Assembly (NCBI GenBank): GCA_030374765.1
Contig: JARGXX010000068.1
Span: forward strand, 2,852,001 to 2,916,000
Length of the DNA stretch: 64,000 nt
Source of the DNA: Agarophyton chilense
Lineage: Eukaryota > Rhodophyta > Florideophyceae > Gracilariales > Gracilariaceae
Direction: 5' to 3'
Shown here: piece by piece, positions 1 to 62,830 of the stretch
Layout: each line of letters begins with the position of its first letter
Numbering within the stretch: position 1 is the first letter of the stretch
The notes under the pieces: model-generated
The model's input: the letters and a program-made list of their open reading frames with translations, nothing else
The model's database searches: none
What the model was told of the DNA's origin: nothing
Made by a program: the position numbers and the translations under genes

Positions 1-364
1 GCCCCTGTATAGGGTTTCACCCCGTTTTCCTCTTGTTCTCCTTTTTGGCTCTCGTGAGTGGTCGCCCCACTCACCCCGCTCGTCCACCTCATACGAGTGT
101 TTTCTCGCTCCTTTTCCGACAATCGCCGTGGTACCGCTCCGCCTAGGATTGGTCACACCCCGGACTGTGCCGTGCTCACCTAAACATTCTAGGTATATCC
201 CGCCGGACTGGCCTCGGTCTTACACCCGACTCCGTCGTGCCTTTCCAGAGTGGCTCTGTTCCTGTGTTCCGCTGGGACGCGTCTCCTCCGTCTGAGGCGT
301 GTCTCTCAAGAGAGGAAGATCCCGAACATCTTCGTAGTGTCTCCGCTCCAAGCGTTGTCCTACA
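1..364 (+). repeat. 5' LTR of Gypsy A copy 1 (partial, 3' part only)
   Basis: This matches 10226-10589 nearly base for base (offset 10225; about 9 mismatches by eye). It ends in TACA, giving the canonical CA end. The first 232 bases of the LTR lie outside the window. Confidence 0.95.
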
Positions 365-367
365 AAC

Positions 368-383
368 TGGTCTCCCGACTTCG
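368..383 (+). promoter_or_regulatory. Candidate primer-binding site of Gypsy A
   Basis: TGG starts 3 nt after the LTR end, as expected for pairing with the CCA end of a tRNA. The first ten bases (TGGTCTCCCG) are complementary to the 3' end of yeast tRNA-Tyr as I remember it. The next bases do not continue that match, so the primer identity is open. The core TCTCCCGACTT recurs at the same place in Gypsy B. Confidence 0.45.
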
Positions 384-6300: not shown

Positions 6301-7597
6301 ACGGTTATGTATTCATCCGCAAGGAGTATTGGAACCCAGAGAAGGAGAAACGCCACAAGCTGTCACCCGTTGCCGACGGCCCCTTTCGGGTTATTTCGGT
6401 GGCTCCCGACACTGTCGTTGTTGACCTCGCTGGTAGTCACGAACGCATCTCCCGCGATCGCGTGGTATCGGCTCCTCCGCCGTTAATATCCCAACCTACC
6501 GGTGTGACTGCTCCCGTTGAAACGGATTCATCGACCCCCTCACCCCAGGTCCACCCGCGTGCCTACGCGTTACCACACCCATCTCGGGGTTTGTGTGACC
6601 TTCCGCTACCCGCGGCGCCCTACCCGCAAGGAATCGTGTCGCGCATTCGTCGCTCCTCCCCAGTCCACCCGACGGACACCAACTCCGGTGCATCGTCTAA
6701 GGAGGGGGAGTCGCCCGAAAGCCGTCGTAATCCGGTCGATACCATCGCTAGAACCGCCGCACCGTCGCGTGTCATTCTTCGCCCATCAAAGGTGCCTGAT
6801 ACCGACGTCCTGCACGACTCGACGCAGCCGCTATCCAAGCCTCAGAAAGCAGCTGCGGATAACGCCACCAACACTCACCGAGGTGTCACCACACGGGCAA
6901 CACGGAATGCAAATGCGCTCGAAGCACCGCAGCCGGACACAGTACGAGTGGACGACGCACCGCCAAGTACCCCGCACAGGAAGGCGGATACATCCACGGC
7001 GCCGACGCCGGACAGCCAGCCATGGGAACCCTCACGTGACTACACGGAACCTCGCCGTGGGACAGGGAGGTGCGACAATGCGCCACCGCCCCAGCGAATC
7101 TCATCGCCGAAGCGAGCTTCACCACGCCGATTAGCGGAACGACCACCCGGGTTACCCGCTGGTGTGGGCCCTCCAACCGGAGTGGGAAGCTCTGAAACAA
7201 GTCCGGCACTTGGAGAAAATGAACCGCCGAACTCGGGTCGACATTCTACTCAGCCGAGGACTGCCTTGCTCGCTACACGGTCCGAACGGAGCGAAGCCGC
7301 CCAACGCGTGATCACTTCGGTACCCCCTGGCTCAGGACGGGTACCACTCGTAAATAGCGACGCCGTCATACGGGATGGCCGGGAAGCGTACCGACAAGAG
7401 TTCGTGGTTGGACGCATTTTGGAGCACTCTTACCACCCAAAGGGGTATATCCAATACTTGGTCCGTTGGTACGGGTACGGCCCCGTATGGGATTCAGACG
7501 AACCGATAGAGCACCTACCTCGGTCAAAGGTGGTACAGTATCATCGTCGTACTATCACGGCTTTGCCGGCTACCATTAACCGAGCCCAAGTGGGATA

Positions 7598-9993
7598 AGA
7601 AGACACCCGATGGGGAGAAAGGAACAGAAGATCTGGATAAGGTCCCTTGGAAGAAGGAGAAGATGCACAAAAGACCTGTAAAAGGACACTCAGAAGAAGT
7701 GGAAGAGAAGAAAAAAACAAATACGTCATAGACGGAAGCAGTTTACTATTTTCGAAGTTGCTGCACACACTACGGCACAGCGGGGTATACTAACCAAGAT
7801 CCCAAGGGATCAGTTGGAAGAACCCTGATTACCGTGCGCGGCAGCCGAATCGCTAGCAGAGTTACTCCCGCCGGCTAGGCGTGCCACGAGGGCGTCTCTC
7901 ATTGTACCGATGTCGCCGCTCGCCGCTTGTGCTTTCAGTCCGACACCCCGAAAGAACTGGGAGATCACGGCCGCCTCTGGGCGTATGGGAACCTCGATAA
8001 CTTCCAGTTCGTCCGGCAACGCCGCCGCCACTGGAGCGATGACCGCACCTGCGTGAGTCGCTCCCTGCGCCGGCTGCGCCGTTGTATCGGCAGCATCGGG
8101 GTCGCCCATGTCTTCCATGACCTCGTCGCCACGGTATTCGCCCTCCTCCTCCGGGAGATCATCACCGCCATAGGCGTAGTAGATGTCATCCGAGTTGACA
8201 AACCCCACGGGATGGTATGCCTCGCGGAGCCATCCGGAGTGCCGACGCCTCCGCCTCGGAGATCTCTTACTGCTCCCATGGGTTAAAGAAGATGAAATCT
8301 CCCGCCAACAGCGTGCGACGCCCCGGAGACCGATCAGCCCCACCGGCTTCTCGACTACGGTCGCTCTGCCGGACAGGCACGACAGCCCAGTCGACACGCC
8401 CAATGATGTCGATGAGCTCCTGAGCTTCATCAGCGTTATTGACACCTCCAAGAGGGAGTTGAAGGTCCAGCTGCCTGATGTAACCACGCAAACGGGGAGG
8501 AAGATACCACAGTCGATACTGGTCGTAGGCTTCCCACAAGATGTACACCGCGGCGCGGACTGCCCATTCGGTTAGGACCACGGACCACAAGCCGGAGTGC
8601 AGATCCTCGATGACGTACGAGTCCAGATAGGAGACGACTGGAGGCAACTCCACGTAACATCCCCGGCACACCTCGACGGAGGACCACCACCCAGGCAGGG
8701 GAACGTATCGCCCCAACTGATAGAAGGGACTAATCCGGTTTATCTCCGTGTTCTGATAAGGGGCAAAGAACCCAAAGCGGGATCTGCCCCGACGTTCCTC
8801 GCGGATGAAGTTCTGTAACCACCGATATCGGGACTAACGACGAAGGTGACGGAACTCGGCACGAATGATCGGACGGACCCACCAGATCGCTTCTTGACGC
8901 GCTCGCGGTTGACCGCGCCATGCGTAATTATCCAACGCCGCAAGGTGGTCACAATAGCCGATCTCACCCTGAGTCCGGTACATCCGTAGGTCGAAGCCGA
9001 ATTCGTCGGGGATGGGAAATTGAAAGCTTGCCCGGTTGATCCGTGAATAGCCGATGCGGACGAATATGCAATGCGCCTCCTCCACCGACTCGCGCCTCCG
9101 TCGCAGAATCGCGTGAACGGGAACCGCCACACGGCGTCGCCAATCCCACGAGGTGGTGATCAAAGCCGGCAGCTCGCCCGGGAGACGCACATTGCCATCA
9201 GCATACGACACCACGAGTTCTTCGTCGAAGACCGCTGTCAGATGGAACCACGGAGCTCTCCGGAGATTCGCCGCATGTTGACGCGGGTTTAACCCGACGA
9301 GTTCGTCGTAAGTGGGCCAGGTGTCCTCCCCAGGAGTGATGTGGCTTGAAGCTTCAACGGGACCCCAGGATCGGCTCGGCGCGGTTGACGAGGCACTCCC
9401 CGGCGGAAGGGGAGCCGAATGGACACCGTAGAAGTAACCCCGGCGGGGATTGTTACCATTGTTCATCGGGAGTACTGATCGCCGAGGTATCGGCATTTGT
9501 TGGCTGGAGAATGGTGAACGATGCACAAAAACGCTCGAAGTTCGAGGAGTGGTAACCGCGTTGGTACGTTTGTCGTTCGGTTGTGCAGCTCTGCCTTTGA
9601 CAGTCGAGTGGTCGCTTGACGCGTTACGCGGCTCGCTTTTATGCCGGTTGGACCGTTGCCTCCTCGCCATGTCGACGGCGTGTTCGTCACCTAAGGAGGG
9701 GGATATGAAGGGCAATGCCCTTCAAGGTTTCTTCCCAGGACTTAGATATTTAGTGCACTTGAGGACTAGCTTGGTCTATGACCAGCTATACCGCTATTGC
9801 GTGCAGACGGCCGGTTAGGACCGGAGGTGAACACTGGTGGAACACGTGGACTGCATGGATGCCGCCGCTCGAGTGCAAGGCGTGCCACACGTAGCTCGAA
9901 TTTTACCTAATGGTTAGTATTATTTAGTAATTTTCAGTATTTATTTAGCTACTCTATCGCTATTTAGTGTCTATTTTTCGGGCGCGCGCCCAC
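7598..9993 (-). other. Antisense open-frame region of Gypsy A (between integrase and 3' LTR)
   Basis: After the integrase-chromodomain reading frame there are 2.4 kb with no sense coding. The opposite strand holds long open stretches between about 9715 and 7810 with protein-like composition: an N-terminal Arg/Ser/Pro-rich part, a middle part rich in Trp, Tyr and Arg, and an acidic then alanine-rich C-terminal part. Antisense additional ORFs in the 3' region of Gypsy elements are known in plants. I recognise no domain. The region is interrupted and is treated as part of the fossil element. Confidence 0.55.
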
Positions 9994-10589
9994 TGTCAGG
10001 GGCCGCGCGCCACACTACTTAGGAGGTTGAGCACTGCTCCCCAGTAAACACCCTCTTGGGAGATCCCAAGGAGGAAGTCTTGACTCTGAACTCTTCACCT
10101 TCGGCGCGTCTTCACCGCATACTGCGTGAGCGCCCGTCGCACGTTAGTTCATCCACCTCTCTGTCCACCAGAGTGCTACCACCACCGTGGGTTCATATTT
10201 AATCGCCGACACTTGTTGTAGTCTCGCCCCTGTATAGGGTTTCACCCCGTTTTCCTCTTGTTCTCCTTTTTGGCTCTCGTGAGTGGTCGCCCCACTCACC
10301 CCGCTCGTCCACCTTATACGAGTGTTTTCTCGCTCCTTTTCCGACAATCGCCGTGGTACCGCTCCGCCTAGGATTGGTCACACCCCGGACTGTGCCGTGC
10401 TCACCTAAACATTCTAGGTATATCCCGCCGGACTGGCCTCGGTCTTACACCCGACTCCGTCGTGCCTTTCCAAAGTGGCTCTGTTTCTGTGTTCCGCTGG
10501 GACGCGTCTCCTCCGCCTGAGGCATGTCTCTCAAGAGAGAAAGATCCCGAACATCTTCGTGGTGTCTCCGCTCCAAGCGTCGTCTTACA
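9994..10589 (+). repeat. 3' LTR of Gypsy A copy 1
   Basis: 596 bp, starting TGTCAGGG and ending CTTACA (TG...CA). The start is fixed by the matching 596-bp LTR at 63371-63966 on the other strand, and the end by the repeat at 1-364. The LTR is immediately followed by Copia-type coding sequence, so this is the outer edge of the insertion. Confidence 0.95.
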
Positions 10590-43814: not shown

Positions 43815-44710
43815 TTGAGCGGGGCAAAGCGCGGGATTCGAAGTAGGGGCAACGGGACTGGGATGCGTGGGTAAACGGGGGGGCGGTGGGGGAAACCGAC
43901 GACAGTGGTGCGTAACAGAGCGGTGGAGCGGAAGGCAGGCGGTGGAGGCGTCTCCTGCCTTGGCTCATCTAGGGCGGAGTGAGCGAGCAGCGAGATTTGT
44001 GCCGTCACAGTGAGAGAATCTGGCGCACGCGAGAGTGCACACCACGGCGAAGGCATGCCGTAAACCCATTGGAGGAGCGATGTGACACGTGGCGAAGCTG
44101 TTTATTCACTGCATATGGTTGGATGCTGAGCGCGATGCTGTGAATGTGAACCAATAGAAATTACACAAGTGGACATAGAAATGGCGGGACGAGCTGTCAT
44201 CCAGGCACCTACCTGCTGCAAGGCGAACGCGTGGCTTGGGACTGGTTTGGGACAAACGACCATCGTTGTTGCTCTTGGGCATCCTTACACCACGCCAGAC
44301 CGAGTTTCACAACACCAATTCTCAACACGTCTTTTGAGTTTCGAAACGGGAGCAGGGAGCACGCACCACCGTCGACCCATGCCTGGCTCAGTACTTCCGT
44401 GTGGCCCAAAGGTACGAAGGATGGGGAGTAGTGGTCAGCGTTGCTGGTGATCGCGAAATCATCAAACATGATATTTGTTGCCTGGCGACGCCAGAAACGA
44501 TGCGCCTCGACGACATGGTGAGCACGAGCACCCGCGAGCACGAGGAGCTCTTGCTTGGTGTGGCTCTGTGCGCACTTGCAAGTTGCAGGCACGCATGGAG
44601 CTGCTCCACGTGAACCACGTGGCTTAGAAATATGGCTACGTGGTGTGTCACGTTCACTGCGGCGCCGCCGCCTTCCCGACCACGCGACTGCCGTCAGTTG
44701 GCATCGCAAC
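43815..44710. promoter_or_regulatory. Divergent promoter region between AGC kinase and UTP13
   Basis: About 900 bp between head-to-head starts. Short frames on both strands look like shadows of GC-rich DNA. No site named with confidence. Confidence 0.45.
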
Positions 44711-47284
44711 ATGCCGCCCCGTCGTTTGCGCTTCGCGCCGTCTTCCTTCGTGCGGCCCATCTTCTCGCAGCTGCGTCCGGCTGTCAGCGAACAGGCCTCT
44801 GTTCTGCTACTTGCAACTGATGAAAAAGTTTCGCTCTACCCGCCATCTCCGTCCTTCGTCCCGCCGCCACCTACCCCGTCAAATCCCGTGTGTGCCACCG
44901 CTCTTACTCCGGATGCCGCCATTGCCATCGTCGCTCATACATCTGGCCATGTCTCGTTTCATTCTATCCTTCAAGAGCGCCCTTCTTCCACCATAACTCC
45001 GTTCCGAGATGAGCGGGTCGTTTCCTTTATCTCCGTTGATCCGTCGGCTCACTATGTTGCTCTCGCGTCGTCCGACGGTCTCGTACATATTTACGCCGTT
45101 GAAAACCGATCATTGACTCATGTCTTGCGTGTATCCTCCATGGTAACTGCCATTTGTTTTGCTCCTAGTTCTTTCTTCTTGTATGTTGCTGCGGAAGACG
45201 GCACTGTGTCTGTCTTCGACTTGAAAACAAAATCGCGCAAGCCAATCTCCGTGTTATCTCCGCATGTAGCCCGAGTTACTTCTCTGGCTTTTGCAGATCA
45301 TCGATTGCTTTCCGTCTCACAAGACAACGTTCTAGCCATTACCGACCTTAATAATGACAATGCCAATGCCAATCCAGCCTTACTTCGCGTTGACGATTCT
45401 CTTGTCGACGTGATATGCCTGGACCATTATGCGCTGACTGTTGGTGAAAAAGGCCTCGTACGCGTTTGGAACACCAAAACAGCCCAGGAGCTTCGTCAAA
45501 GCGCTCTGCAGTTGCCCTTTGTTTCTAGACACGCTGAAGATCCCGTCACAGTTACTTCCATGCGCCTAATGGCAAAGCGAAAGATTGCCATTGCGTTTTC
45601 AGATCACTCTTTGCTTTTCATACACGCAGATAATTTGAACAAGTTGGCGCTCTCAGACGAGCTGGTATGTGGAAATCTTGAAGAAATATACGATATGCGA
45701 GCGATTGACCAAACGACGCTCGCTATTGCGTCAAACTCTAATGCTGTGCATATTCTTAAATACGAAGACGAACAGTGGCGATGTCAAGCTCGACTGCAAC
45801 ATCATTCGGGCATTATACTGGCTTTGGACACCCTAACAGGGCAAAAAGCATTACAACAAGATGCGGCAAACGCTTACCTGGCTTCAAGCTCTCGGGATAA
45901 CGACGTTCGGGTGTGGCGACGCATAAACAATAAGTGGCAATGCTTCGCTATTGGCGAAGGACACACGGACGCTGTTGGAGCAGTGGCGCTTTCCCCTCGG
46001 ATAACGCATGGTCAGTTTTTTGTCGTCAGCGGGGCATCTGATCGCACATTAAAGCTTTGGAGCCTGGACTCCGCGAAGAGTAAAGCCGAAAAAGCTATTG
46101 ATGCAGAAAATCAACCTTCTTTCGATTCAAGCTGTAATGCTTCCTCTCTCACAGCGAAATGGACAATTTTGGCACACGAAAAGGATATCAATGCGGTTGC
46201 GGTGTCGCCCGATAGTCGCATTATTGCTTCTGGATCGCAAGACCGTTCTATAAAGCTGTGGGACCCGTCGAACGGCAAGCTTCTCAGGAAATGCGTTGGA
46301 CATCGTCGAGGCGTGTGGGCGGTGCAGTTTTCAACTGTTGACAGAATACTGGCTAGTTGTAGTGGCGACTCCACTGTGCGCTTATGGAATGTTGCAGATG
46401 GTAGTTGTTTGCGAACTCTACAAGGTCATCTAGCAGGGGTTCTGAAAGCTAACTTTATCAGCTCTGGAACTCAGCTTGCTTCAGTTGGAGCTGACGGATT
46501 ATTGAAAGTATGGAACGTACGGAATGATGAGTGCTGCGCAACACTTGACGGTCATGAAGATCGGATATGGGCTCTCATCAACGTGGAAGATGGAGAAAAG
46601 CTAATCACCGGTGGTGCAGACGGCTTGATACAGATTTGGAAGGATGTCACGAAAGAGACTACTGACGCAGAGATGAAGAAGAAAGGGGAACAGGAATTAA
46701 TGAAACAAGCTGTTCTTAATGCAGCCCGTGCACGTCGTTGGGAAGTTGCAGCAAGCGGTGCCTTACAATTAGGCATGTCTCAGAAGCTGAAATCAATATT
46801 CTCTGAGCTTGTTACAACTGTTGACGACCCCGACAGAGAGCTGATTAAAGTCGTGAGAGCCCTTGTTAAAGAGAAAGGCGAATCCCAGTGGAGCTTGGTT
46901 CGAAAGCTACTCCTTTGTTGTCGGGAGTGGAATGCAAGTGGAGGTTCTAAGAGTGCCGCAGTTGCGGCTTACGTGATGAAAGCAGTGTTTAGCTGTTGGT
47001 CATGTGACGTTCTGTGTGGCGCGTTTGGGGGTGAGGGGAGAGCTCTCATGGAAGCACTTGTTGCGCACGTTGACCGACATGAGGAACGAATTAGCAAAGT
47101 TATGACGAAGCTAGGACTCCTAGAGTTTACCTTGAATTGCATGCGAGGTCTGCCTGAGGGGCAGACTTGGAGTTTGTTAAAAGGGAAATCTCTTGATAGG
47201 GGCAAGAAAAGAGCAACAGTTCCAACAGTTTCCGCCTCTAATCGAAAACGGAAAGCAAGGGATGCCTTTCCTGTGGAGTACTGA
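44711..47284 (+). CDS. UTP13: UTP13/TBL3, WD40 subunit of the SSU processome (U3 snoRNP)
   Basis: 857 aa from the ATG at 44711 (AACATGCC), which starts MPPRRLRF; the frame is open upstream to 44555 but without family features. UTP13 is part of the UTP-B complex that binds the 5' ETS of pre-rRNA in the nucleolus. It has two WD40 propellers: repeats over about 60-390 and about 395-690, with GH...WD-type units such as SGSQDRSIKLWDPSNGKLLR and SCSGDSTVRLWNVADGS. A helical C-terminal UTP13 domain (about 705-835: LNAARARRWEVAASGALQLG in part, ending LLEFTLNCM) tells it from other WD40 proteins. The end is basic (GKKRATV...RKRKARDAF), a nuclear signal. Length fits the family. Confidence 0.93.
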   Translation: MPPRRLRFAPSSFVRPIFSQLRPAVSEQASVLLLATDEKVSLYPPSPSFVPPPPTPSNPVCATALTPDAAIAIVAHTSGHVSFHSILQERPSSTITPFRDERVVSFISVDPSAHYVALASSDGLVHIYAVENRSLTHVLRVSSMVTAICFAPSSFFLYVAAEDGTVSVFDLKTKSRKPISVLSPHVARVTSLAFADHRLLSVSQDNVLAITDLNNDNANANPALLRVDDSLVDVICLDHYALTVGEKGLVRVWNTKTAQELRQSALQLPFVSRHAEDPVTVTSMRLMAKRKIAIAFSDHSLLFIHADNLNKLALSDELVCGNLEEIYDMRAIDQTTLAIASNSNAVHILKYEDEQWRCQARLQHHSGIILALDTLTGQKALQQDAANAYLASSSRDNDVRVWRRINNKWQCFAIGEGHTDAVGAVALSPRITHGQFFVVSGASDRTLKLWSLDSAKSKAEKAIDAENQPSFDSSCNASSLTAKWTILAHEKDINAVAVSPDSRIIASGSQDRSIKLWDPSNGKLLRKCVGHRRGVWAVQFSTVDRILASCSGDSTVRLWNVADGSCLRTLQGHLAGVLKANFISSGTQLASVGADGLLKVWNVRNDECCATLDGHEDRIWALINVEDGEKLITGGADGLIQIWKDVTKETTDAEMKKKGEQELMKQAVLNAARARRWEVAASGALQLGMSQKLKSIFSELVTTVDDPDRELIKVVRALVKEKGESQWSLVRKLLLCCREWNASGGSKSAAVAAYVMKAVFSCWSCDVLCGAFGGEGRALMEALVAHVDRHEERISKVMTKLGLLEFTLNCMRGLPEGQTWSLLKGKSLDRGKKRATVPTVSASNRKRKARDAFPVEY

Positions 47285-48605: not shown

Positions 48606-48610
48606 TTCAT

Positions 48611-49173
48611 TGTGAGAAAGCGCCGAAAAGCGTGTAAGTTTCCTATAGACGCGACCCGTGAGGAGTCCGTAAGTGGGGCGTGCGTGTCACACGAGGCTGG
48701 TCGAGGAACGGTGACGCGTGGAGACGAGCGCCGGCACCGGGCGGTCGTAGGGAGACTGGGCGGTTGGGAACGTCAGGCGCGATCGAGGTACGCGCGAAGA
48801 GTCCGAACGGCTTTTAAACGTGTAGATATCCCGTACGGAGTAACGCTTAAGGTCTGCTATAGAAACGATACTTAGATTGAGACGGTGGTGCTTACCATTT
48901 ACTGTTTGGAGGGTGGCGGGGAGCGGAGGTGCATAAGTAGTGTGCACCTCCCAGCTGCAATCCGCATTACAGTCCGTAGTGGCGCCTGCACCCACGTGGC
49001 GAAAATATCACGGGGTGGGGTGCGCCAACTATCTACAACTATGACACGTGGTAACCTACTGTACATGTCCGTCCGGCGTGCCATCTTCGCACACATGTGC
49101 AACCAGGCAACTTGCAATCATTCCTGACCACCCCCTCCTTACCTGACAACCCGCTCGGATCCACTATACTACG
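48611..49173 (-). repeat. 3' LTR of Gypsy B
   Basis: 563 bp, aligned without gaps to 59632-60194 with about 38 differences. It begins TGTGAGA right after TTCAT. It contains several CCGNNCGG motifs (48737, 48803, 48831, 49069, 49151). Confidence 0.95.
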
Positions 49174-49199
49174 GACCCCCCTTCTAGAGTGCGCGATGT

Positions 49200-51300
49200 C
49201 CTCGGAGCGCCAATATCCTAGGCAATAGAGGGTTGAGTGCAAACCGAGCGGACGCGGCGTGGCGTCTGCGAACCGACACGAAACGCACTAGAAGCGACTG
49301 GTCGCGTTATACGGGCCCGTTCGGAAGTCCATATCGTACCACAGCCGCTCGGTAATGCACGCCATATCACAGCCGTTCGGGAGTGCACGTCATATCACGC
49401 CCGTCGGCGAGCGGTCGTCGGCGGCGTATTTAAGCACTTCTCTTAGCCGGGCGGAGCGACGCCTAGACTGCACAGAGGACCGGTACGGCAGGTGCGAAGA
49501 GTACGGACTGAGGAGGCTGCGTCTTTCCGTTCGGTTCGACGATGGACGACAACAACGGGGCTGTCAACCGCGACCTGGAGGAGAGCGTGGGACGCCAGCC
49601 TACTCCGGCCCTCGCAGACATACCGGTACCGCGACGGGCACCTGTAACTGCACACGATGCAGCTTCCGCGGGGCCTCCGTTCGGTGCCCAGGGTGGCAGT
49701 TACGCGATCTGGGACGCCCGACCGACGGGAATTCCGCCGGCGTCGGTGGGGAATCCTTCCGTGCCTTCATTTATTGCGTTCGGTGCGATACAGTTGCAAA
49801 TAGTAGGGCGTGTGGGTGCGGGCGTTCTGGTATCCCCGTTCGGATATCAAGCGCCTGGCGCGGGCTTACCCGGTGTGTTTCGAAACCCGCTCCCTGGGCA
49901 GGAGCACGACCACCGCTGGCGACGCCCGCAGGGCCGTAAGAGTGACCGACCGGGAACGAATTTCCGTTTTCGGTTGAGACGCTGATTTCAGGGGACGAAT
50001 GGAGCGGATGTTTGGACGCGCGGCGGTTCGGCGCAATACCGACGCTGCGAACGTTCTTCGAACGCACCGGCTGGAATCCGAAGCTGACGCGCCACGAGGC
50101 GTGGTGCTCGCGTTGGAGGCATCATTCGCGAATAACCGGTCGGGAGGGCGACGACACTGTGGGCAGCTGTGACATGTCGTTTCTTTGTAGTCCGGAAGAG
50201 TAGGACTTCCAAGGTCGTATGCGCGACTTCGTCACGCGCATGCTGTCTGACGAGGGTATTCCCGATCCGCACGGTAACCCTTTGAGGCTCGTGATGTTTT
50301 TCCCTCCGTTCGACGGGCTCTATTTTCTGAACCGACGCCGTTGGGGTGATCATGTCGCGACTGAAGCGCGAATCCGGTCGGGCTTGGGTGGTTTCATGCA
50401 CGGGTGGCACAACGTGGAGTTCTTCGACGTTCCAGTGAGCAGGTATCCGCATCGGTCGGCGACGAGGAGCGTTATGCCCTGAGAACGCTGCAGGAAGCCT
50501 GCCGGGCGAATGATGAAGAGCCTCCCGAATCGGTCGTCGAAGCCTTAGAGATGGCGGTTGAGGTATGGGTGCCCCGCGCGGATGCGTTCACCAGCCTGTT
50601 GAGCGCAGAGATGGTCAGTACTTTCGACTTAATGTCATATGTCAGCGCTCTCTGCGTTGAACTCCTCCAGCACCGCGTCAATACCTTCGGGGACATGGTA
50701 ACCCGACCGGGTGGCGCCACGGTATCTCAGCTCATTGGGCATTTGGACCTGTCAATGGGGCTTGCAAATGACGCCGCCCATGAGTGGCTGCAGAGAATGC
50801 GAGCGGCGATACGGTCCGGGTCATTTTCCGCAGCGCCTGGGGTTTCCGGCGTCCCGGCGGCTGAGGTCGTGGCGGGAGTTTCGGTGCCGGACCGGGCGGG
50901 GGATGCTGAGGACCCGTCGACGTTAAGGACGGCGGCGCAGGCCGCTGCGTCGCGGCGGGGGGACGAAGAAACCGGAGGGCCGACTCCTGTTCGGGGTCCT
51001 AGGAACAAGACCTCCGTACAGGCCGCGCCTCTGTCCTCTCTGTGTCTTACCGTTCAGGGGGTTGCGCACAATAGTGCGGTTAGTGCCCTCTTACAGCCGT
51101 CCGGGCGTCTTTTGGGCTCCGCGTCGCCCGTACCAGGTCCTGGGAACGCCGGCAGGGGTGGTTTGAGAGGCCAGCGGGGAGGCAGCCGCGGAAGGCGTCG
51201 TAGCATCAGGGACTTTGCGTCCCTGTCGGTGAGTTCCTGTATCTTGAAAGCGTCTTCTCCGTCCGGAAAGCGAGGAAGGTGAGTCATTCCTTCCTGCGGT
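49200..51300 (+). other. Antisense open-frame region of Gypsy B (between 3' LTR and integrase)
   Basis: The plus strand, antisense to the element, holds protein-like open stretches from about 49.36 to 51.28 kb, beginning about 330 bp inside the 3' LTR, in the same relative position as the antisense region of family A. Composition: Pro/Gly-rich N-terminal part, a middle part rich in Arg, Trp and Phe, then a helical segment (QHRVNTFGDMVTRPGG, part) and an Arg/Gly-rich tail. No known domain and no clear similarity to the family A antisense frames. Interrupted; part of the fossil. Confidence 0.5.
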
Positions 51301-52467
51301 TGAACCCAAGTAAACGATCCTAGCATTTCCGTCATGCTTCACTGCGCGAAACACGGTGCAGCGACGCGTGCGAGATTGCATTTTCTGAGCGCGCGTCGCC
51401 ACGCGCGTGCGCCACGCGCGTATCCCACCGGTGGGCGCCGGTTAGCGCGTTTGCAGACTTAAAGTGCACGTCCCGATACAGCAATGCCCGGCTAGGTCAG
51501 TATCCGATTCGGTATACAGTAACGCATGGAGTGCGCCTTCGTATCTGTAGTGCAACCCTCCTGAGGGCCGTTTTCCAGGACTTGTTGGTTTTTCCGCCTC
51601 GGGCGATACTTGTGAGATCTATGAGTAATACCGCTACTAGCGGGCTGGCGTAGCCAGGTGTATACGCGTTGTACGCGAAGTGCACCGGCGGCCGTGCGCC
51701 GTGGCCCCGATTCGGGTGTGACTTACCCACGTGTACCACGGGTGGCCCATGACAGGTTGGCACAGCATAGCTGGATATTTCTCTATTTATTAAGCTTTAT
51801 TACACTAGGTTAGGGAGCTCTTTACAGTATTCTACACTATATAGTGCCAGGGCGATCTCGCCCTGACACTCAGTAAACCTCCCCAACCAGGGTTCTTGGC
51901 TCTAAGTCTTTTTCCGCTTTCGCGAGTCTTCCACACTCTACGGAGGTGAAGCCGCGTTACTAACGGTACACTTATCCACCCTGCGTCAACAGGAGACTCA
52001 CCGCTGTTAGCTTGTATATCTTTCATACCACTGCCGTGTTCTCGCCCCAGTGTTGGGTTTGCTACATATTTCTTTTGGCTCTCGTGGCCCATGCCCCCGA
52101 TCGCCCCCACTGGGTGGTCCCCACTTTATCGCTTACCCACTCTCGTGGTAGCTCCCCCTTTTGCTTTGTGGTTGGTTATTCGTGCCGCTCGCGCGTGTGC
52201 CGCGCGCCGGCTTACAGGGTTTACCGCCACTCCAGTGGGTGCATTACTCGATCTCGAGACTTGCCCACTCTCGTGGAATACAGCTCATACCTGGTCTGCT
52301 CCCTTCTAGCATCCCGCACTCTCCCCGCTTGGCGTGCCGGTGAACCTCGGCCTTACACCCCGACTTAGTCGTGTTCACTCCGGAGAGGCTCCGTCGCCGT
52401 GCTACCCTCCTTGGAGGAAGACTCGGACATCTTCGTGTGTTTCCGCCGCCCTTGGCGTTGCACTACA
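51300..52467 (+). mobile_element. Family A-related LTR segment inserted in Gypsy B
   Basis: The LTR proper is 51845-52467 (623 bp, TGCCAGGG...CACTACA). Its second half follows the family A LTR closely in order: CAGTAAAC, CTCTCGTG...CCCCAC, CCTCGGYYTTACACC, CGGACATCTTCGTGTG-like, TTGGCGTTGCACTACA versus AAGCGTTGTCCTACA. It is a diverged relative. The 545 bp before it also lack the motif that marks Gypsy B, so they may belong to the insertion. I see no clear target duplication, so the left edge is uncertain. An old relic. Confidence 0.6.
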
Positions 52468-55400
52468 GTATCAACTCAAAAAATCAAAAGTCTTTTGGCC
52501 GTGCGGAGAGTCCAAATCGGCCATTTTCAGAGCCTGAAACGGCTTCGTTTCTGAGATATCAGCCAGGACATTTTTTGCGTTTTTGATTCCATACGGAGTG
52601 GTAATTTCCGCGTCGGATTTTTTTGATTATCCTTGCAGGTAACCGCTCGGTCCGGCGTGGAGCGCAGCGCGTATACGCTTGCCACGGTTATGCAGGCGGG
52701 CACCGCGGGGGCAGGCGGGCACCAGGTGGCGTGTTGTAATCGGTGTACGCGTGTTGTCCGGCCCCCTGCGGGCCGCGGTGCCGGAGTTACCGAGTATACA
52801 AGAGTGTTTGTCGCTGTGGTGGTGGTCGATGTCCATGCCTGGTTGTGTTGGGGTGCGGTGCTGACGGAGTCGCACGGAGTCACTCCTTCCTTCTTTTTGC
52901 CGCGCGATGGCTCCAAACACGCTGTTGACTACCGTTCGGAGGTGATGTACAGTATTCGGCCGGAGGCCATGTCCAATTTCGGAATTTCCCCGGTTGTTCG
53001 GCACTGCTGACGGAGTCGCACGGAATCACAACACACTCTGGTGGGTGTCGATCGGAGGTGAACTGCGATGTTCGGCCGGAGGCCATGTCCGATTTCGGAA
53101 TGCCTCCTGTCGTTCGGCTTGTATTACCCCCCTTTTTAGATGCTACGGCTCCGCCCGGCGTAGAGTTCTATGCCGTTTGGGATTGGCGCTTCCAATATCG
53201 GCTAATAAAGTGTTGCAGAAGATTGTTGGGAGGTTCCCAAGAGTCTTCCGCAGCACTGCAACCGTACCAGCGTACGCGATAAACAAGGCCGTGCGGAGGG
53301 TCGTCGGCCATCCCATGGTCAAGGATTCGCTCGACAATTCCAATGCTGTCCGATTGGGTAGAGTTAGAGTTGGCCGAATCGGGTTGTGAAGGCTCCGTTC
53401 GGTGATTATTTCCAGCGGAGGGCGAGGTAGTGTTTGTCACGGGTTCCTCGGCGAACGGGCCATCCGGATCAAAAGTTACCGTACGGGCGCGTTCTATGGT
53501 GACCGGGGCCGGTTGTGTCCGAACGGGGATGCAAGTGACGCGGTCGATGCTGACAGTATCGTGAATCCCGTCAACATCGATCGTGACTGTGCTGTCCGTC
53601 ACGGAGATGTCTTTGTAGGGCCCCGCCGTCCTTGGCAACAGTTTGCGCGAGGTACGTTCGTGCTCTTCGAGCACGATACCGGTCGGCGTTGTCGTAGGGC
53701 TGTCGAGGAAAACCTCATCCCCGGCCGCAAATGACTCCAACTTCGGCCCAGCTTTATCAAAGTCCTCCTTATAACGGCGCTGCGCGTTCGTCAGTCGATT
53801 CCGTGCGGATTGAAGCGTCGCCTTAATCAGGCGCAATGTGTAACGCTTCATCTGCCCCGGCGTAGGTGGGGCCGGTGTGGCAGGATCCGTAGCGGAGCTA
53901 GGCTCGTCGAGCACCACGTTCGGAGGTACTCGGGTAAGAGTAAGGTCGAACGGCGTTGTGCCCGTACTCCGGTGAATCTGTAGATTGTAACCGTACGTAC
54001 GTGGTTTCACGTACGCGCGCCCGTTAGACTGGTGATCCGCAACTTAGTGCCTTAGCCGCTGAACCAGCGTCCTATTAAACCGTTCGTATGGACCATTGGT
54101 CTGCGAGTGGTACGCCGTCGTCGTGACGTGTTTCATGCCTAACGCCCGGCAAATCTCCTCGAAGAACTTTGAGACAAACTGAGGTCCGTTATCGGTGAGC
54201 AAGTAGTTGGGAATTCCGTACGGGTAAGCCCAATTGTCTAGGAACGTCCTGGAAACCAACGGGGCGGTTGTGGACCGTAGCGGAACTGCTCCGCAAAGCT
54301 TTGTGAACCGGTCGGTGATGAAGAGGATGTACTCACTTCCAGTGACTGACTTCGGAAATGGACCGACAATGTCCATTGCCACGAACTCAATTGGCCCCGC
54401 AGCTGGAAAGAGCTTACGCCGCTTCTGTGAACTGTTTTGTGTGCCGCGCATTGCAGCGCACGAGCGGCAACCCCGAGCGGTTTGATAAACATCATTAGCC
54501 ATCTGCGGCCAGTAGAAGTCCCTTTGGAGAGTGTTATACATTCGAGTCCCGCCCGGGTGTCCTTCCAGGCGCGGGTAATGCGAAAGATAGAGGACGCGCG
54601 GAACCAGCGAGCGGGTTACCACCTTCTGTAGGGCTCCGTCCAGCGGGGAGCGACGGATGAGAACTCCGTAAATGTTGATGTCGAAGAGGGTAATCCCGTT
54701 ACCCACGTCCTTCCGCACGAACTTGCAGTACTCGTCCTCCGCCTGCGCGCGGATGAGCTCTTCCAAAATGATCGGTCGAACGTTCGTCTCCTCCTCAACG
54801 ATGGCCATGACCTCTGGGCAGCCTATCGGGTTCTGACTATCCTGCCAGTCAAGGACAGTTTCTGTCTTGACTTCACCGTCAACGGTGATGTCCGCGACGA
54901 GGTCGTCGTTCTCTTCCGCGCGGTCTGCAAGAAGTAGGCATGGGACCTCCTCGTCCAGGGAAGTGGTGTCTTTTCCGTTCGTCTGGATTCGCAACAGCGC
55001 GTCAGCGGCCTGGAGTTTTATGCCCGGCCGGTGGACTATGTCGAAGTCACACTCCATGAGACGAAGTCGCCAGCGAGCTAGCCGTCCGGATGCGGCCGCC
55101 AGGTTGAGTATCCACCTCATGCGTGGTGGTCCGTACGTAGAGTAAAGCGGGCTTCCCCGAGATACGGTCGGAGATGCAGTATTGCCCACACGACAGCTAG
55201 GCATTCCCGTTCGGTTGTGGAATATGACCGCTCGGCTTTATTCAGCGAGCGGCTCCAGTATCCGATCGGAAGTAAACCACCGTCTGGTTGCTTTTGTAGT
55301 AAAACGCAACTGACCTGCTTGTCGCAGGCGTCGGTGTCCAGGACGTACGGCATATCTTGACGCGGGGTGGCCAGAATTGGGGGTCGTATTAACCGTTGGC

Positions 55401-58400
55401 GGAGTTTCTCAAAGGCCTCGTGTTCCATATCGGTCAGGGCCTCGAAGTTGAACGGTTGGTTCTTTTCGAGCTTGCGGTTCAACGGGGCCGCAATTCGGTC
55501 AAAGCTTTCAACAAAACGTCGGAAGACGTTGCACAGTCCCAAGAAAAAACGGAGTTCGGTTTGGTTAGTTGGGGGTTTAGCCGCTCGGATAGCGTCCTGG
55601 GTCCTTGTGCAGACCTGCAGCTTGCCCGGACGGATAACGTGACCCAGATAATCGACAGTACCGCTGAAGAATTGGCACTTATCCAAACGGAGAGTGATAC
55701 TGGCTGATCGGAGTGATGAAAGAATGGCCCGAACATGGTCGAAATGCTTCGAAACCGTGCGGGAGTAGATGATAACGTCATCAAGATAGACCAAAGCGTA
55801 TTGCCACTTGACGCGGGACAGTATGATGTCCAAGGCCCGTTGAAATGTGGAGGGGGCGTTCTTCAAACCGATTGGCATTCGAACATACCTGTACAGTCCC
55901 ATATGGGACGTGAAAGTCATTTTATCCCGGTCGGCTTCATCCACTTCGGTCTGCCCATACCCGCTGTTCGCGTCCAAGGTGGAGAATTTTTTCGCTTCTC
56001 CAAGAGAATCGATGCATTCGTCCATTCTCGGTAGTGGATAAGTATCCCGAACGGTGACCGCGTTTAGTCGGCGGTAGTCGACACAGAAGCGTAGACTGCC
56101 GTCTTTCTTCTGAGCGAACACGACCGGACTCGCCCATTCGGCCGAGGATGGCTCAATTACGCCAAGCTCCAACTGCTTGGTGACCTCCTTACGTTCCAGT
56201 TCGCGATGCGACGGACCCGCACGGTATGGCATCTGGTGATCGGCTTCGTACCAGGTTCCGATTGGATCCTGTGCTTTGCTGCCGCGATACGGCCTAGATG
56301 GCCGTTCCACATGTCCCGAAATGGTTTGAGGAGTTCGATGACCCTTTCCCGTTCGGACTCGAATTCGGGAGACAACTGGACCTTTGCGATCCAGTCGTCC
56401 TCTGCATCAGGCGTTGGCTCCTGTCCGGTGGGCTTCGATACATCCGAAACGGAAAGAGATGCGTCATTGGGGCCCTACTCCTTAGTTTCGTCGCTCTGAG
56501 ACGGAAAGTCGGGTGTTATTAATGCGACGGGGGAAGGCAACGCCAGGCCGATGATTTTGCCTTTGTGAAGGCGTACCGGGCGGTCGGAAAAGTTATCCAC
56601 CTGAACGTAGAAGGCCACGCCAAGTCGGATTTCCAGTACCCCGTTAGCCAAGAGGGTTAATTCCTCTTTATGAGCCGAGCGATGATGTCCTTGGATAAAC
56701 ATGAGGCCAGCGGCCCGGGAGGTTACCAGTACATGAGATTTCGACATCGGTGGTTAAGAAACCGGACGGGAAACACGAATCTTGTTCGACGGAGTCTCCC
56801 GAACGGTATTTGGGGCAGGTCGCATGGGTTGCCCGGACGGTGTTGAGCTTTGCCCGGACTCGGATTGAATCGCGACATGGGGCGAGTGGCGTAGTACAAC
56901 AATTCGTTTCGGAAGATGTATCGCCAAAACGTACTTGTCTATGAAAGACGTGCCGAGTATGTAGCTGGCAGCCAGATTGCTGGCTACAATAAACTGAACC
57001 CGGATGGTCAACGCGCCAAGCTGGCCAAGGAAGGGTACGACCCCCAATATGTCCATTCGGTTGCGGGACGCATCCGTAATGTTATCTACCGACCGGGGTT
57101 GCGAGTGTCCTCGCCAGTGCGGAGGAAGGTGCCGCTCGTGGATGAGGTTCGAGCCCGCGCCAGTGTCCAGTACACCTGTAAGTGGAAACATTACCGATCG
57201 GGAGAAGCCGACGGAGAAATTCACTTTATAGTGCAAACTGTTTAACAACATTACTGGCGCGGCCGGATCGGTTTCATCCAAAGCGTCCACAGGGTATTGC
57301 TCCACCAGGTCGGAGGTCGTACCCGTGTAATCCGCCTCGTTGAGGCTTTCCGGCCTAGGAGAGTCGTGCGCCTCTACAAGCTCTCCTCGGCGTTTTTCTG
57401 TTCCGGAACGGGCTGAGCTAGGGGTTCGTTCTTCATGACCATAACCGGTCGGGGTGAGCTAGCGCGGAATGGGGTAGCCAGTGCGGGGGGGCCCGAGCGG
57501 ACGCCAGTAGAAACCCGAGCGGATCCATTAGGACCGTCACGGTTGAAGTGTCCCTCTTTAAGACGGAATTGGTAATTTTTCTCCCGTGCGGCAAGTTAGG
57601 CTTCCCGGACGTCCGGAGGTACCATCTGACAGCAGTTGGGTTCCCGCAAGAGAAAAATCCGGCACGGACGGTTCATGAATCGTCCGGGAGGCGCTGTACC
57701 AACCGGAGGCGTCCGAAGGAATCCTGGGGTCATAGCTTGTGCCGTACCGTAAGTGCCCGAGTTGAAAAATGTTGACGAGGACGGTGTCGTCGGGGCCGAT
57801 GGGGCGGATCTTCCACGCCCAAAGGCGAGAATGGCTTCGCCATTTTCCGAGTCGGTATCAAAAGAATCCGTCGGGGTTCCCACGCTCAAGACTTTCCGTG
57901 CGGAACTTCGGAGAGTGATCAGCTTCGTGCCGGACGTCGTCTCGGTCCGGACGGACTGGCGTCTAGCCGAGCGGTGGGTATCCCCGTAGGACTCGGCGTA
58001 TCGGGCAAGTGCGTCGTATCCGATGTGCGGATGAGACGTGAATTAATTTCTCACATTCGCCTGGATGGCAGGAAGCAATCCCTCCACGAAGATAGACTTC
58101 AACCTCCGATCGGAAAAGACATTGCCGCAACGGAGGGCCTTCGTCCACAACTTCTGGGAGTATTCCGTTTCGGACATCCCAGAGGACTGGTGGTACAGAA
58201 TAACCTCCGAGTAGGCGTCGGCAATAACTTCATCCGTAGCGTACGTAGTCAACAGAAAGTTGACTACTTCCGAGTACGTACGGAGCATTTCGCTGCGCCG
58301 CACGTCAACGGTGCCCATTTCTCCCAAGAGGCGAGACTGGATCAACACGTAAGCCGGTCCGGTCAGGTAGAATTGGAAGCACCAAAGTGCTGCTCCCTCG

Positions 58401-59599
58401 GACAGTCCGTCGTGGTTGCAGGCGGTTTTAAACCGCTGCAAAAAGTTCAGAACTGAAATAGCATCAGCTCCGGAAAAGGATTGTTCCTTCATCTGGACAT
58501 TCAACTTCTTGTGGTAGCGCGCGATTTTCCGCGCTACTTCGAGTTGTACTTCCGAATACGGTCGTTGAGCTGGTACGTACGGTAGTCCACCAACTTGGTG
58601 AAAAGTTCGTTCAGGAGCTTGATTCGCCTGGGTGCAGATTTCTCCGAACGGGAACGGTAACGATCGGATCGTCTTTTGCGACCAGAACTGTCTGAGTCAG
58701 AGTCACTGTTAGTACGGGAAACGGAATTCGAACTATCCAAGTGGTCAGAATCAGTGTCCGAATCGGAGTTAGAGTCAGCCCTACCGCCCTTCTTACGGCG
58801 GCCTCTTCCCACGTCATCAGAGGAAGAGTCGTCTGAATCTCCGTTCGGATCATCTCGGTGTGAATTAAACGGACGGACTGGAACCATGGGGGCACTCTGT
58901 TGTCCCCCTGCATGTTGTTCCAGAATCCGTTCGGGTTCGTGATCTGGGGCTACGTCCGGGCGGCCCATTGAAAACTTTGGGAGGGGTGGCAACGTCGCCG
59001 TTGCCATATAAACTGCCGGTCGGTCTTCCTTCTTTCCTTTTCCAAACCCGATCGGTGTCAATTGCTGCGGCACCTCCTTGACGGTCTCGCGGACCATCGG
59101 GGAGATGATTTCGGAGAGCAACTCCGGTAGGCGCTCGTGCAGATAGCCCTTAACCCGAACGGGAACACGGGACTCGATCTCGGTCTTGACCTTATAGTGC
59201 CAATACAGTTCGAGTTCCTTCCACAGTTCTGTAAGCGTCCGCGGAGGGCTATTCTGAGGATCCTGTCCGATCGGAACGGGGGACTGCTGGGCAGTCCCTG
59301 CGGCGGCCGAACTCACTGGGGGGCTTTCGTACAGTGCGGATGAGGAGGCGGAAGGCCCAGGGGGCCTCGAGGTTTTCGGACGAGAACCTCGGGGTTCTCC
59401 AGGCGGAATTCCAGGGCAGGTGCAGTGCTGCGGGTGCTGCAGCGGCCATCTCAGGTGGTACCCGTAGCGATCTGCAGGGGTGGCTCGCCGGACGGAGCCA
59501 ATTCTTTTTTGACATCAACCCGTGCGGTCGACTCCAGGTTTGCGTCGAGAGACTGCATCGCGTGACTCCTTTCCAGATCTGATCTAACCCGTTCGGTAA

Positions 59600-59631
59600 A
59601 CAAGAATCCCACTTATAAGTCGGGAGATCAA
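59600..59631 (-). promoter_or_regulatory. Candidate primer-binding site of Gypsy B
   Basis: Just inside the 5' LTR the minus strand reads TTGATCTCCCGACTT. The core TCTCCCGACTT equals that of family A at the same distance from the LTR, which supports a shared primer tRNA. Confidence 0.4.
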
Positions 59632-60194
59632 TGTGAGATAGCGCCGAAAGGCATGTAAGTTTTTTAGAGGCCCGACCCGTGCGGAGTCCGTAAGCGGGGC
59701 GTGCGTGTTACACGAGGCTGGTCGAGGAACGGTGACGCGTGGAGACGAGCGCCGGCACCGGGTGGTCGTAAAGAGACTGGGCGGTTGGGAACGTCAGGCG
59801 CGATCGAGGTACGCGCGAAGAGTCCAAACGGCTTGTAAACTTGTAGATATCCCGTACGGAGTAACGCTTCAGGTCTTCTATAGAAGCGATACTTGGATTG
59901 GGACGGTGGTGTTTACCCTTTACTGTTTGGAGGGTGGCGGGGAGCGGAGGTGCATAAGAAGTGTGCACCTCCCAGCTGCAATCCGCATTACAGTCCGTAG
60001 TGGCGCCTGTACCCACGTGGCAAAAATATCACGAGGTGGGGTGCGCCAACTATCTACAACTATGCTACGTGGTAACCTACTGTACATGTCCGTCCGGCGT
60101 GCCATCTTCGCACACATGTGCAACCAGGCCACTTGCAATCATTCCTGACTACGCCCTTCTTACCTGAGAACCCGCTCTGATCCATTATACTACA
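59632..60194 (-). repeat. 5' LTR of Gypsy B
   Basis: 563 bp, from TGTGAGATAG to ATACTACA, followed by the TTCAT duplication. Contains CCGNNCGG at 59677, 59852 and 60090. Confidence 0.95.
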
Positions 60195-60199
60195 TTCAT

Positions 60200-61465: not shown

Positions 61466-62830
61466 TCAAAGGTCAGAGCTTCTGCCACTATACGACAATG
61501 TAGAAGTGAATAACACCATAAAGTACACGCTAAGGACACCAACAGATAGAATGTTGGCCCCGAAAGCCGGTCGGTGGTAGGCTTCAATGACTGTACCATT
61601 GTTGAGAGGTATCCATACCTGTCCTATCCCGACAAGACGAGCAGTGCCGGAGGCAGCTTTTACGAGCTCAATGTCTTTGTGCTCGTAGCAGATAAAAGAC
61701 TTACGCAAATGGAAGAAGGGGTGGGTTGCGCCAGAGTCGATGTAGGCCGAATCGACTTTATTCTGCGACCGTAACGCGATGTTACTACTGTACTTTGCAA
61801 AATTGCAGTTGTATGGAGATGAAGGCGGAGGATAATCATCCTTTTGCGCCACGTATGATCGGGGGTTGAAGTTTTTACCTACATTTCCATTCCCTCTTAG
61901 TGCAAAGCGTGAGATCCAGTTCGACTGACGTTTTTTACCTTGGTTGTATTGTGGTCGGTACTGCGAGTTACCGCCAACACTATTATTCGAACTATTTTGT
62001 TGACGGTCAGATTTACCGGAAGTATGTTTGTCGTTGTATAATTTTCGTTTGGAGCTGTTTCGAGCGTAGTGACCGCGACGACCGCAATAGTAGCAGTTGT
62101 TGTCGCCGCGATCCCTGTTGGAAGATGATTTGTTTCGCCAGGTACGTCGTCTGCGTCAAATTTTTCTTGCCTTGTATGCCTTAGGTTGTGTTAAAGACGA
62201 GGATGTAATGGTGGAAGATTGTTCCGGGTTGTTCGGGTTCTAACGGCGAGCCACTTTGGCTTCGACAGCATTTAAGATGGAGTCGAAGCCGGCTTCTGGG
62301 AGGTTGGACATCATCTTCAAAGGGGCGAAAGAGTTTGGAAGACTTCGGATGAGCTTTGAAACTTTTTCTTTGTCCGAAAGCTCTTTACCAAAGGTTGCAA
62401 GTTCCCCAACAATTTCCAAGAACTTAGACACATGCTCGTTCCAGTCTTCACTATCTCTGAAAACGAGAGTTTCTAAGCGATGACGGATGTTCTGAACTGC
62501 TCGTGTATTGGATGTGGTGTACACTCGTTTCAGTTCATCCAAAAAGTCCTTGGCCGTTTTGTCGTCGTCGTCCGTAAAAGTACGGACGAGAGCAAGAGCG
62601 GAATCACCGAGGCATAATATGATGGTAGTCTTGGCTTTCATGGAGTTCTCGAACAAAGATCTCATTGCACGGTTAGTGAGAATGAATTCTTCGGGGCTAG
62701 GATCTAAACCGCTGAGAAAAACGCCTTCCCGGCGAAGATACGCTAGAAGACGACGGCGCCATAGAATGTAGTCCGTGGGAACCTTGAGCTTCGGTGGCTT
62801 TCCACGGAGAGCCTCTTGAGCACCCTGCAT
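61466..62830 (-). mobile_element. Copia-type retrotransposon relic (gag and protease)
   Basis: The minus strand from 62830 encodes a Copia gag of the UBN2/DUF4219 kind (WRRRLLAYLRREGVF, then DFLDELKRVYTTSNTRAVQN and LIRSLPNSFAPLKMM). Cys/His-rich zinc-knuckle sequence lies around 62.1 kb. A Copia protease core DSGATHPFFH and ILSVGVL end the readable part near 61.5 kb. Integrase, RT and RNase H are absent. Broken and truncated. LTRs were not resolved. Just upstream (62880-62945) two imperfect copies of a CGCTCAAACARGTTGA word occur. Confidence 0.8.

Follow-up and report, generated by a model that had tools for sequence, protein, structure and literature searches.

Why should a retrotransposon carry one short palindromic word along its whole length, in coding and non-coding parts alike? 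The question is raised by a chromovirus copy, here called family B, at positions 48611-60194 of the window, that is, the whole stretch of 64,000 nucleotides of contig JARGXX010000068.1 that was analysed. The word CCGNNCGG (CCG-N2-CGG) occurs in this copy 77 times and is conserved among family B copies, sister families carry other words of similar form, and a gene antisense to pol is conserved and present in several of the families with CC..GG words. The protein of this antisense gene is rather probably a dimeric binder of the palindrome of its own family, and an anti-silencing role is the consequence favoured here by analogy.

A palindromic word along one retrotransposon

The distribution of CCGNNCGG in the window is highly uneven, with 77 sites in the family B copy, seven in positions 1-48610 and one after 60194. 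The sites outside the copy lie in a second chromovirus, family A (488, 898, 5947, 6211 and 7282), and elsewhere at 16873, 41497 and 61567. A sequence-only reading made earlier had counted about 75 sites, which is close to the computed number, and 20 of its 22 example positions were exact, the other two, 52641 and 57491, being corrected to 52643 and 57493. Its figure of about two sites for family A was too low, and the two positions given for them, 5949 and 7276, are 5947 and 7282. With the insert described below excluded, the element (10.66 kb) showed 77 sites against 7.7 expected (z 27, 100 dinucleotide shuffles), so the enrichment over composition that had been claimed, with about 5 expected, is real and roughly tenfold. 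Among all words of two trimers separated by 0 to 12 bases CCGNNCGG ranked first in the element, with 77 against 10.1 expected from trimer frequencies. Base composition as the source of the word was rejected on this ranking and on the dinucleotide shuffles.

The other spacings of CCG-Nk-CGG from N0 to N14 gave 3-13 occurrences each in the element, except N3, which gave 23. The N2 spacing is preferred strongly, not exclusively, and N3 is also used. The earlier claim of a selected spacing therefore stands insofar as the other spacings are not equally enriched; N3 had been put at about 15 and is itself enriched. The spacer and the flanks of CCGNNCGG are nearly free. Its density is 5.3-8.8 per kb across the 3' long terminal repeat (LTR), the antisense region, pol, gag and the 5' LTR, and zero in the insert. 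The parts of the element are as follows.

48611-60194, minus strand: family B chromovirus (Ty3/Gypsy LTR retrotransposon) copy, with TGT...ACA ends, an LTR repeat and the 77 CCGNNCGG sites
48611-49173, minus strand: 3' LTR, end approximate, 5 motif sites
49316-49404, strand not assigned: 28-bp tandem array of 3.2 units, motif at 49317, 49345 and 49373
49542-51282, plus strand: remnant of the antisense gene (candidate palindrome-binding protein), broken frames
51548-52474, strand not assigned: probable solo LTR of another high-copy element, 0 motif sites
53168-54043, minus strand: C-terminus of pol with chromodomain (PF00385), by Pfam
54044-55237, minus strand: integrase (Integrase_H2C2, rve), by Pfam
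55117-56406, minus strand: reverse transcriptase (RT) and RNase H, by Pfam
56754-57458, minus strand: retroviral-type aspartyl protease (RVP), by Pfam
58043-59514, minus strand: Gag-like region, by position alone, with no Pfam match
59632-60194, minus strand: 5' LTR, inner end approximate, 3 motif sites

The LTRs, the protease-RT-RNase H-integrase order, the chromodomain and the 5-bp target duplication are those of a Ty3/Gypsy chromovirus; the duplication, TTCAT, is perfect (48606-48610 and 60195-60199). The identity of the LTR pair is 93.4%, and that of five other copies 96.1-98.9%. Of the other family B copies, nine had sequence across the place of the 927-bp insert at 51548-52474, and all nine lack it. 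The insert has 39 other genome matches at 96-98% identity (best 40 scored of 294 candidates), and was taken as a solo LTR because several of these are paired about 11.1 kb apart.

With the RT as query, the genome (79.8 Mb, 135 contigs) yielded 4049 first-look candidates; 98 of them were scored, giving 99 matches. CCG-N2-CGG ranked first in each of the 21 family B loci (L006-L026, with the window copy as L006), at 22-35 per approximately 4 kb. The enrichment that had been expected in other family B copies is thus present in all 20 other loci. The sequence-only reading had named three outcomes that would speak against it, namely a count near expectation, equal enrichment of other spacings and absence of enrichment in other copies, and none of them was found. 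Genome-wide, CCGNNCGG occurs 16413 times and its backward control 13410 times.

The distance between sites also showed a lower limit. Gaps of less than 20 bp were absent from the window copy, with 6.4 expected (P 0.0005), and the same trend was seen in two other family B copies (P 0.0145 and 0.0085). Steric exclusion was not adopted as a reading of this minimum distance, since no such effect appeared in locus L058, families C and D or locus L060, which are described in the next section. Two CCGNNCGG sites 8-19 bases apart were counted 279 against 37 times genome-wide, many of the listed pairs being one repeated sequence. The recurring pair CCGTCCGGCGGATTGATTCCGTACGG, found at G000:C1:670497-670522 and in many other places, holds two CCGNNCGG sites outside family B. 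For four such pairs, compared by eye, the distance to an RT match of another Gypsy copy is about 2.2 kb, and close pairs are therefore not confined to family B.

Related dyads, codon use and site turnover

Enrichment of a word had been taken as peculiar to family B, but it extends to the sister families, in the form of other CC..GG dyads, and to family A, which has a weaker dyad of its own. Nine loci (L027-L035) with about 60% RT identity to family B hold 0-4 CCGNNCGG each. Four of them (L027, L030, L031 and L033), here family C, carry ACC-N4/N5-GGT, and the remaining five (L028, L029, L032, L034 and L035), family D, carry CCA-N1/N2-TGG. Three further stretches were picked by their antisense protein, namely L058 and the pair L059 and L060, which form family E. 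Against dinucleotide shuffles, L058 showed CCG-N2-CGG 19 times (2.2 expected), while the shuffles gave for family C ACC-N5-GGT 42 times against 3.2 and ACC-N4-GGT 36 against 3.5, for family D CCA-N1-TGG 29 against 3.4, and for L060 of family E CCT-N2-AGG 17 against 1.5. The other family E locus, L059, carries CCT-N1/N2-AGG and TCC-N3-GGA. In B, C, D, E and L058 the reduced word CC-Nk-GG (k 0-12) stood above expectation at k 3-5 and at no other k (peak z of 4-10), and in host DNA it was negative at every k. The inverse arrangement GG-N4-CC was raised in no group (largest z 1.3). Most sister chromovirus families are thus without CCGNNCGG but have other dyads built on the core CC-N3..5-GG.

The effect of codon use was evaluated by shuffling synonymous codons. 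In the pol open reading frame (ORF; the longest stop-free one, 693-1289 codons in four family B copies), there are 12-28 CCGNNCGG sites, and 2.8-5.8 after shuffling; for each of the four copies the observed count was attained by 0 of 1000 shuffles, and all three codon phases are used. The antisense ORF of two family B copies gave 18 and 17 sites against about 4, again with 0 of 1000 shuffles attaining the count. The result is the same for both word spacings in the family D pol ORFs of L028 and L032 and in the family C pol ORF of L031; for L030 of family C, 0 of 1000 shuffles attained the count for N4 and 11 for N5. In the antisense ORF of L060 CCT-N2-AGG occurs 7 times against 0.8 (0 of 1000). 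Codon use was rejected as the cause on these shuffles, in agreement with the sequence-only reading.

Conservation was assessed by aligning the window copy, which belongs to subfamily B2, with copies of subfamily B1. The six fixed bases of the word are 95.0-98.0% identical between the subfamilies and the spacer and flanks 84.6-92.8%, which supports the sequence-only reading. The whole N2 word was kept in 78.9% of 635 site-by-copy cells, which stand for far fewer independent events as the B1 copies are closely related. The other spacings, apart from N3 (see below), were kept less, namely N1 in 48.8% of 43, N4 in 37.0% of 119, N5 in 57.6% of 59, N6 in 52.6% of 38, N7 in 30.0% of 70 and N8 in 34.7% of 98 cells. 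The trimer CCG was kept in 91.4% of cases within the word and 76.2% outside it, and CGG in 85.7% and 74.3%, respectively. Compared with four single copies, the window copy has 57-59 sites in common, 16-19 of its own and 24-33 found only in the other copy. Most of the non-shared sites differ by one base, therefore sites are gained and lost by point mutation.

The gene antisense to pol

An uninterrupted ORF of 852 codons lies between pol and the 3' LTR, antisense to pol, in four family B copies. Its codon 25 is ATG in three of them and GTG in L054. A fifth copy, L048, has no ORF of more than 300 codons in the region. In the window copy the gene is broken by a frame change and a stop, and compared with the B1 copies it lacks about 740 bp near 50437. 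The genome search with the antisense protein gave 54 matches from 1489 candidates (53 scored); among the matches listed there are ten full-length antisense genes, six of them stop-free, the query included, and several other copies retain only the end of the gene (matches starting at residue 736). The family B copies L038 and L045 lack the middle of the gene; about 1.5 kb of the antisense region (equivalent to 49431-50930 of the window) is missing in both. The family thus includes variants in which most of the antisense gene is gone.

The ratio of nonsynonymous to synonymous substitution rates (dN/dS) between subfamilies, L051 against B1, was 0.19-0.20 in the second stretch compared and 0.30-0.32 in the third, where the antisense gene of L051 itself has stops. 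A homologue (P0121) is BWQ96_10536 of Gracilariopsis chorda, with 824 amino acids and 47% identity over 72%. In a collection of 5.8 billion proteins only this homologue was found, and a profile search found it alone again (8000 candidates scored in each). Relatives at 31-41% identity are numerous in the same genome, with 1239-1595 first-look candidates and 53-60 scored per search.

Relatives of the antisense protein occupy the corresponding place in four further families, A, D, E and L058. In L058 the protein lies opposite a pol that can be aligned with that of family B and is 38% identical to the family B protein; those of L059 and L060 lie opposite the chromodomain, RNase H or H2C2 and are 31% identical to it. 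In family D (L057), part of the strand opposite pol matches residues 428-647 of the L060 protein (E 5e-15). Beside this family D element there is also an ORF of 434 amino acids (L057, 3912-5216, minus strand). In family A, the piece at 8270-8833 matched the profile of the family B antisense protein (hhalign probability 95, E 2.5e-8), and the piece at 8837-9721 gave no match to this profile.

Candidate readers of the dyads and the rest of the window

The dyads are symmetric, with one to three adjacent spacings, a free spacer and a common CC..GG core, which points to homologous dimeric binders with diverging half-sites; a recogniser of two half-sites, as the sequence-only reading had suggested, would be the natural reading of such words. 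The antisense protein is the candidate binder because it is element-encoded, conserved and fast-diverging. A link between word and protein is suggested because L058, whose antisense protein is the closest to that of family B among the other families (38% identity), has the word of family B, and the relatives at 31% have one half-site base changed (CCT for CCG). In the mechanism proposed here, chromovirus families would encode, antisense to pol before the 3' LTR, a dimeric DNA-binding protein recognising two half-sites of the CC...GG type, and each family would spread through its entire length the version preferred by its own protein. For family B this version would be CCG-N2-CGG at about one per 140 bp, with N3 tolerated. 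Point mutations creating sites would be favoured and those breaking sites disfavoured, because the bound protein would mark the copies of that family. The consequence would be sequence-specific protection of the element chromatin from host silencing, similar to that by VANC for VANDAL. A bolder form of the proposal, advanced tentatively and with some doubt, is an evolvable code in which diverging antisense proteins read CC-N3..5-GG dyads and the families rewrite their own coding sequence, coating (about one site per nucleosome length) and shielding their own copies.

The VANC anti-silencing proteins and their motifs are known from the VANDAL (Mutator-like) transposons of Arabidopsis (PMC5735166, PMC10398659). 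As described there, the VANC words (YAGTATTAY; AGTTGTCC/AGTTGTAC) lie mainly in non-coding tandem repeats in one orientation, binding and demethylation were demonstrated, and the self-encoded protein lifts the silencing of its own family. To the extent of these accounts, the present case is similar in that short words are enriched in one transposon family while related families have other words (with partial overlap here between D and E), and in that the element encodes a diverging protein, here the candidate reader. It differs in that the words are symmetric dyads found in coding as well as non-coding parts, most differences between copies being of one base, and in that the element is an LTR retrotransposon with RT and integrase, whereas VANDAL is a Mutator-like DNA transposon. 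The antisense protein is also without the Pfam match (DUF1985/DUF287) reported for VANC. The parallel to VANC drawn in the sequence-only reading is therefore apt as an analogy, while the domain of a VANC-like protein was not found. In Gracilaria and Gracilariopsis, DNA methylation is reported to change (PMC9861306), so that algae of this kind may offer something for an anti-silencing protein to act on.

In plants, LTR retrotransposons are said to carry antisense ORFs between pol and the 3' LTR relatively often, and the function of these ORFs is given as unknown (PMC7264820, PMC11963269). These aORF-3R include Grande gene23, RIRE2 and Retand with the TRP28 domain, for which DNA binding is predicted and a regulatory role suggested (PMC7264820, PMC11963269). 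The family B gene has the place and orientation given for aORF-3R and, like them, is conserved in most copies. It differs from the Retand type in having no match to TRP28 (PF04195) or any other Pfam family and in belonging to a red algal chromovirus. No element-wide word is mentioned in the available parts of those accounts, and the Retand repeats are tandem arrays.

Fungal Zn2Cys6 factors recognise everted-repeat sites of the form CCG-Nx-CGG. The family B word has the same half-sites in the same everted orientation, while the antisense protein had no Zn_clus match in Pfam. The search of the genome for Zn_clus gave no match, and since none was obtained in control genomes either, it is uninformative.

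Several observations weigh against the proposed role of the antisense protein. The N3 spacing is itself enriched (21 against 7.4 outside the insert, z 5.9) and was kept in 74.5% of 157 cells, and the relatedness of the B1 copies counts on the same side. The family words partly overlap and are not fully private: CCT-N2-AGG is raised in family D too (12 against 3.3, and in L029 9 against 1.3), CCA-N1-TGG in L060 (10 against 1.8), CCA-N2-TGG in family C (14 against 3.1) and ACC-N4-GGT in L058 (7 against 1.7). In 1.87 kb aligned between family B and L058 there are 14 and 3 sites with one in common, so that what they have in common is the word itself and not sites at homologous positions. The dN/dS was 0.57-1.12 within B1 and 0.82 between the window copy and L051, values that are expected because copies drift after insertion. 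The single family C stretch that was read, L056, showed no relative of the antisense protein. Pfam gave no match up to E 1 for two family B antisense proteins and none up to E 10 for the G. chorda, L059 and L060 proteins, and no DNA-binding domain was recognised in these searches. No relative of the family B protein was found in PDB, and AlphaFold2 returned no usable model (mean predicted local distance difference test score, pLDDT, 29). A spider silk protein, the only hit of a second PDB search (E 1), was taken as chance. The family A dyad, given below, is weaker, has asymmetric outer bases (C before, T after) and comes from one copy. The relation of word to protein appears as a correlation over about six families that is not separated from the pol tree.

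The main rival to anti-silencing is that the sites bind the antisense protein but serve element regulation, copy-number control or the handling of double-stranded complementary DNA (cDNA), which is on the whole unlikely. The even coverage of LTRs and coding parts would suit a protein coating cDNA, and the 28-bp array places three family B sites directly upstream of the antisense start (before a TATTTAA near 49427, by eye, and the ATG at 49542), which hints at autoregulation. About 77 dispersed sites per element would, however, not be needed for regulation alone. It is doubtful that a host DNA-binding factor of CC..GG specificity (an activator, centromere or replication protein) was recruited, with the antisense protein otherwise employed. 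The core common to B, C, D, E and L058 could be read by one host protein family, and the overlap of the D and E words and the lack of a recognised binding domain would agree with this. A single host factor would be expected to favour one word, but the top word differs by family, the word of family B is not clearly raised in C, D and E (largest z 2.1, in L059), and in host stretches none of 14 words is raised (largest z 1.8, in loci fetched for holding CCGNNCGG). A set of paralogous host factors is a possible variant.

That the palindromes function at the RNA level, with pairing inside one transcript or from one transcript to another serving packaging or condensation, is very improbable and was rejected on spacer composition. 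CCG can pair with CGG, so that sites could pair mutually, but self-complementary spacers occur at 12 of 77 sites, against 4 of the 16 dinucleotides, which indicates no selection for pairing, and pairing would favour continuous palindromes. An origin in mutation bias, codon use or tandem duplication is hardly credible: the 28-bp array does hold three sites, but the synonymous shuffles, the use of all codon phases, the different words of sister families at similar G+C and the one-base differences at most non-shared sites speak against it. Tandem repeats were rejected as a general source, as the sequence-only reading had held, although it had missed this one small motif-bearing array. That the word is the preferred target of the integrase, kept so that new copies insert into old ones, can scarcely be maintained and was rejected: targeting of palindromes by LTR retrotransposons is reported (title of PMC6911290), but CCGN2/3CGG was found within the 40-bp empty site at none of nine insertions with perfect 5-bp duplications (nine of eleven copies, C111 and C13 not included).

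A family-related word filling each element leads directly to the prediction that each antisense protein binds the word of its own family. The related proteins, each with its own recognition word, would then form a natural series. If the bolder form of the proposal were true, there would be an anti-silencing system independent of VANC, and the antisense ORFs of LTR retrotransposons would gain a function. Self-recognition by transposons would seem to have arisen a second time from an unrelated source, with sites arising by point mutation inside genes and not in tandem repeats. A search of an open-access library, judged by titles and the beginnings of abstracts, turned up no description of such words, or of this antisense gene, in red algae.

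The other chromovirus of the window carries a relative of the antisense gene and is arranged as follows.

1-10525, plus strand: family A chromovirus, with its own weaker dyad CGC-N5/6-GCG, one copy read
7813-9721, minus strand: family A antisense gene in three ORF pieces, of which 8270-8833 matches the family B antisense protein profile

In this one copy of family A there was no enrichment of CCGNNCGG. CC-Nk-GG had no peak at k 2-4 and was mildly raised at k 5-10 (z 2.1-3.5). Words chosen out of a scan of many gave CGC-N5-GCG 19 times against 4.4 and CGC-N6-GCG 16 times against 4.2 in shuffles, and the dyad was also visible as CCG-N7/8-CGT (25 and 22 against about 5.4). The combined CGC-N5/6-GCG count exceeded synonymous shuffles in two of three ORFs (attained by 0, 82 and 6 of 1000) and the combined CCG-N7/8-CGT count in one of three (4, 99 and 338 of 1000).

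The host is probably a gracilariacean red alga; the one database homologue of the antisense protein is from Gracilariopsis chorda, and the RT relatives with an organism name were three from Agarophyton chilense and one labelled as a bacterial metagenome-assembled genome (best 120 of 5385). A fragment of a Copia-type polyprotein lies at 61466-62155, with Pol_BBD and zinc-knuckle matches both slightly under the Pfam cut-off. A long open host gene at 44522-47284 encodes a WD-repeat protein with a Utp13 domain.

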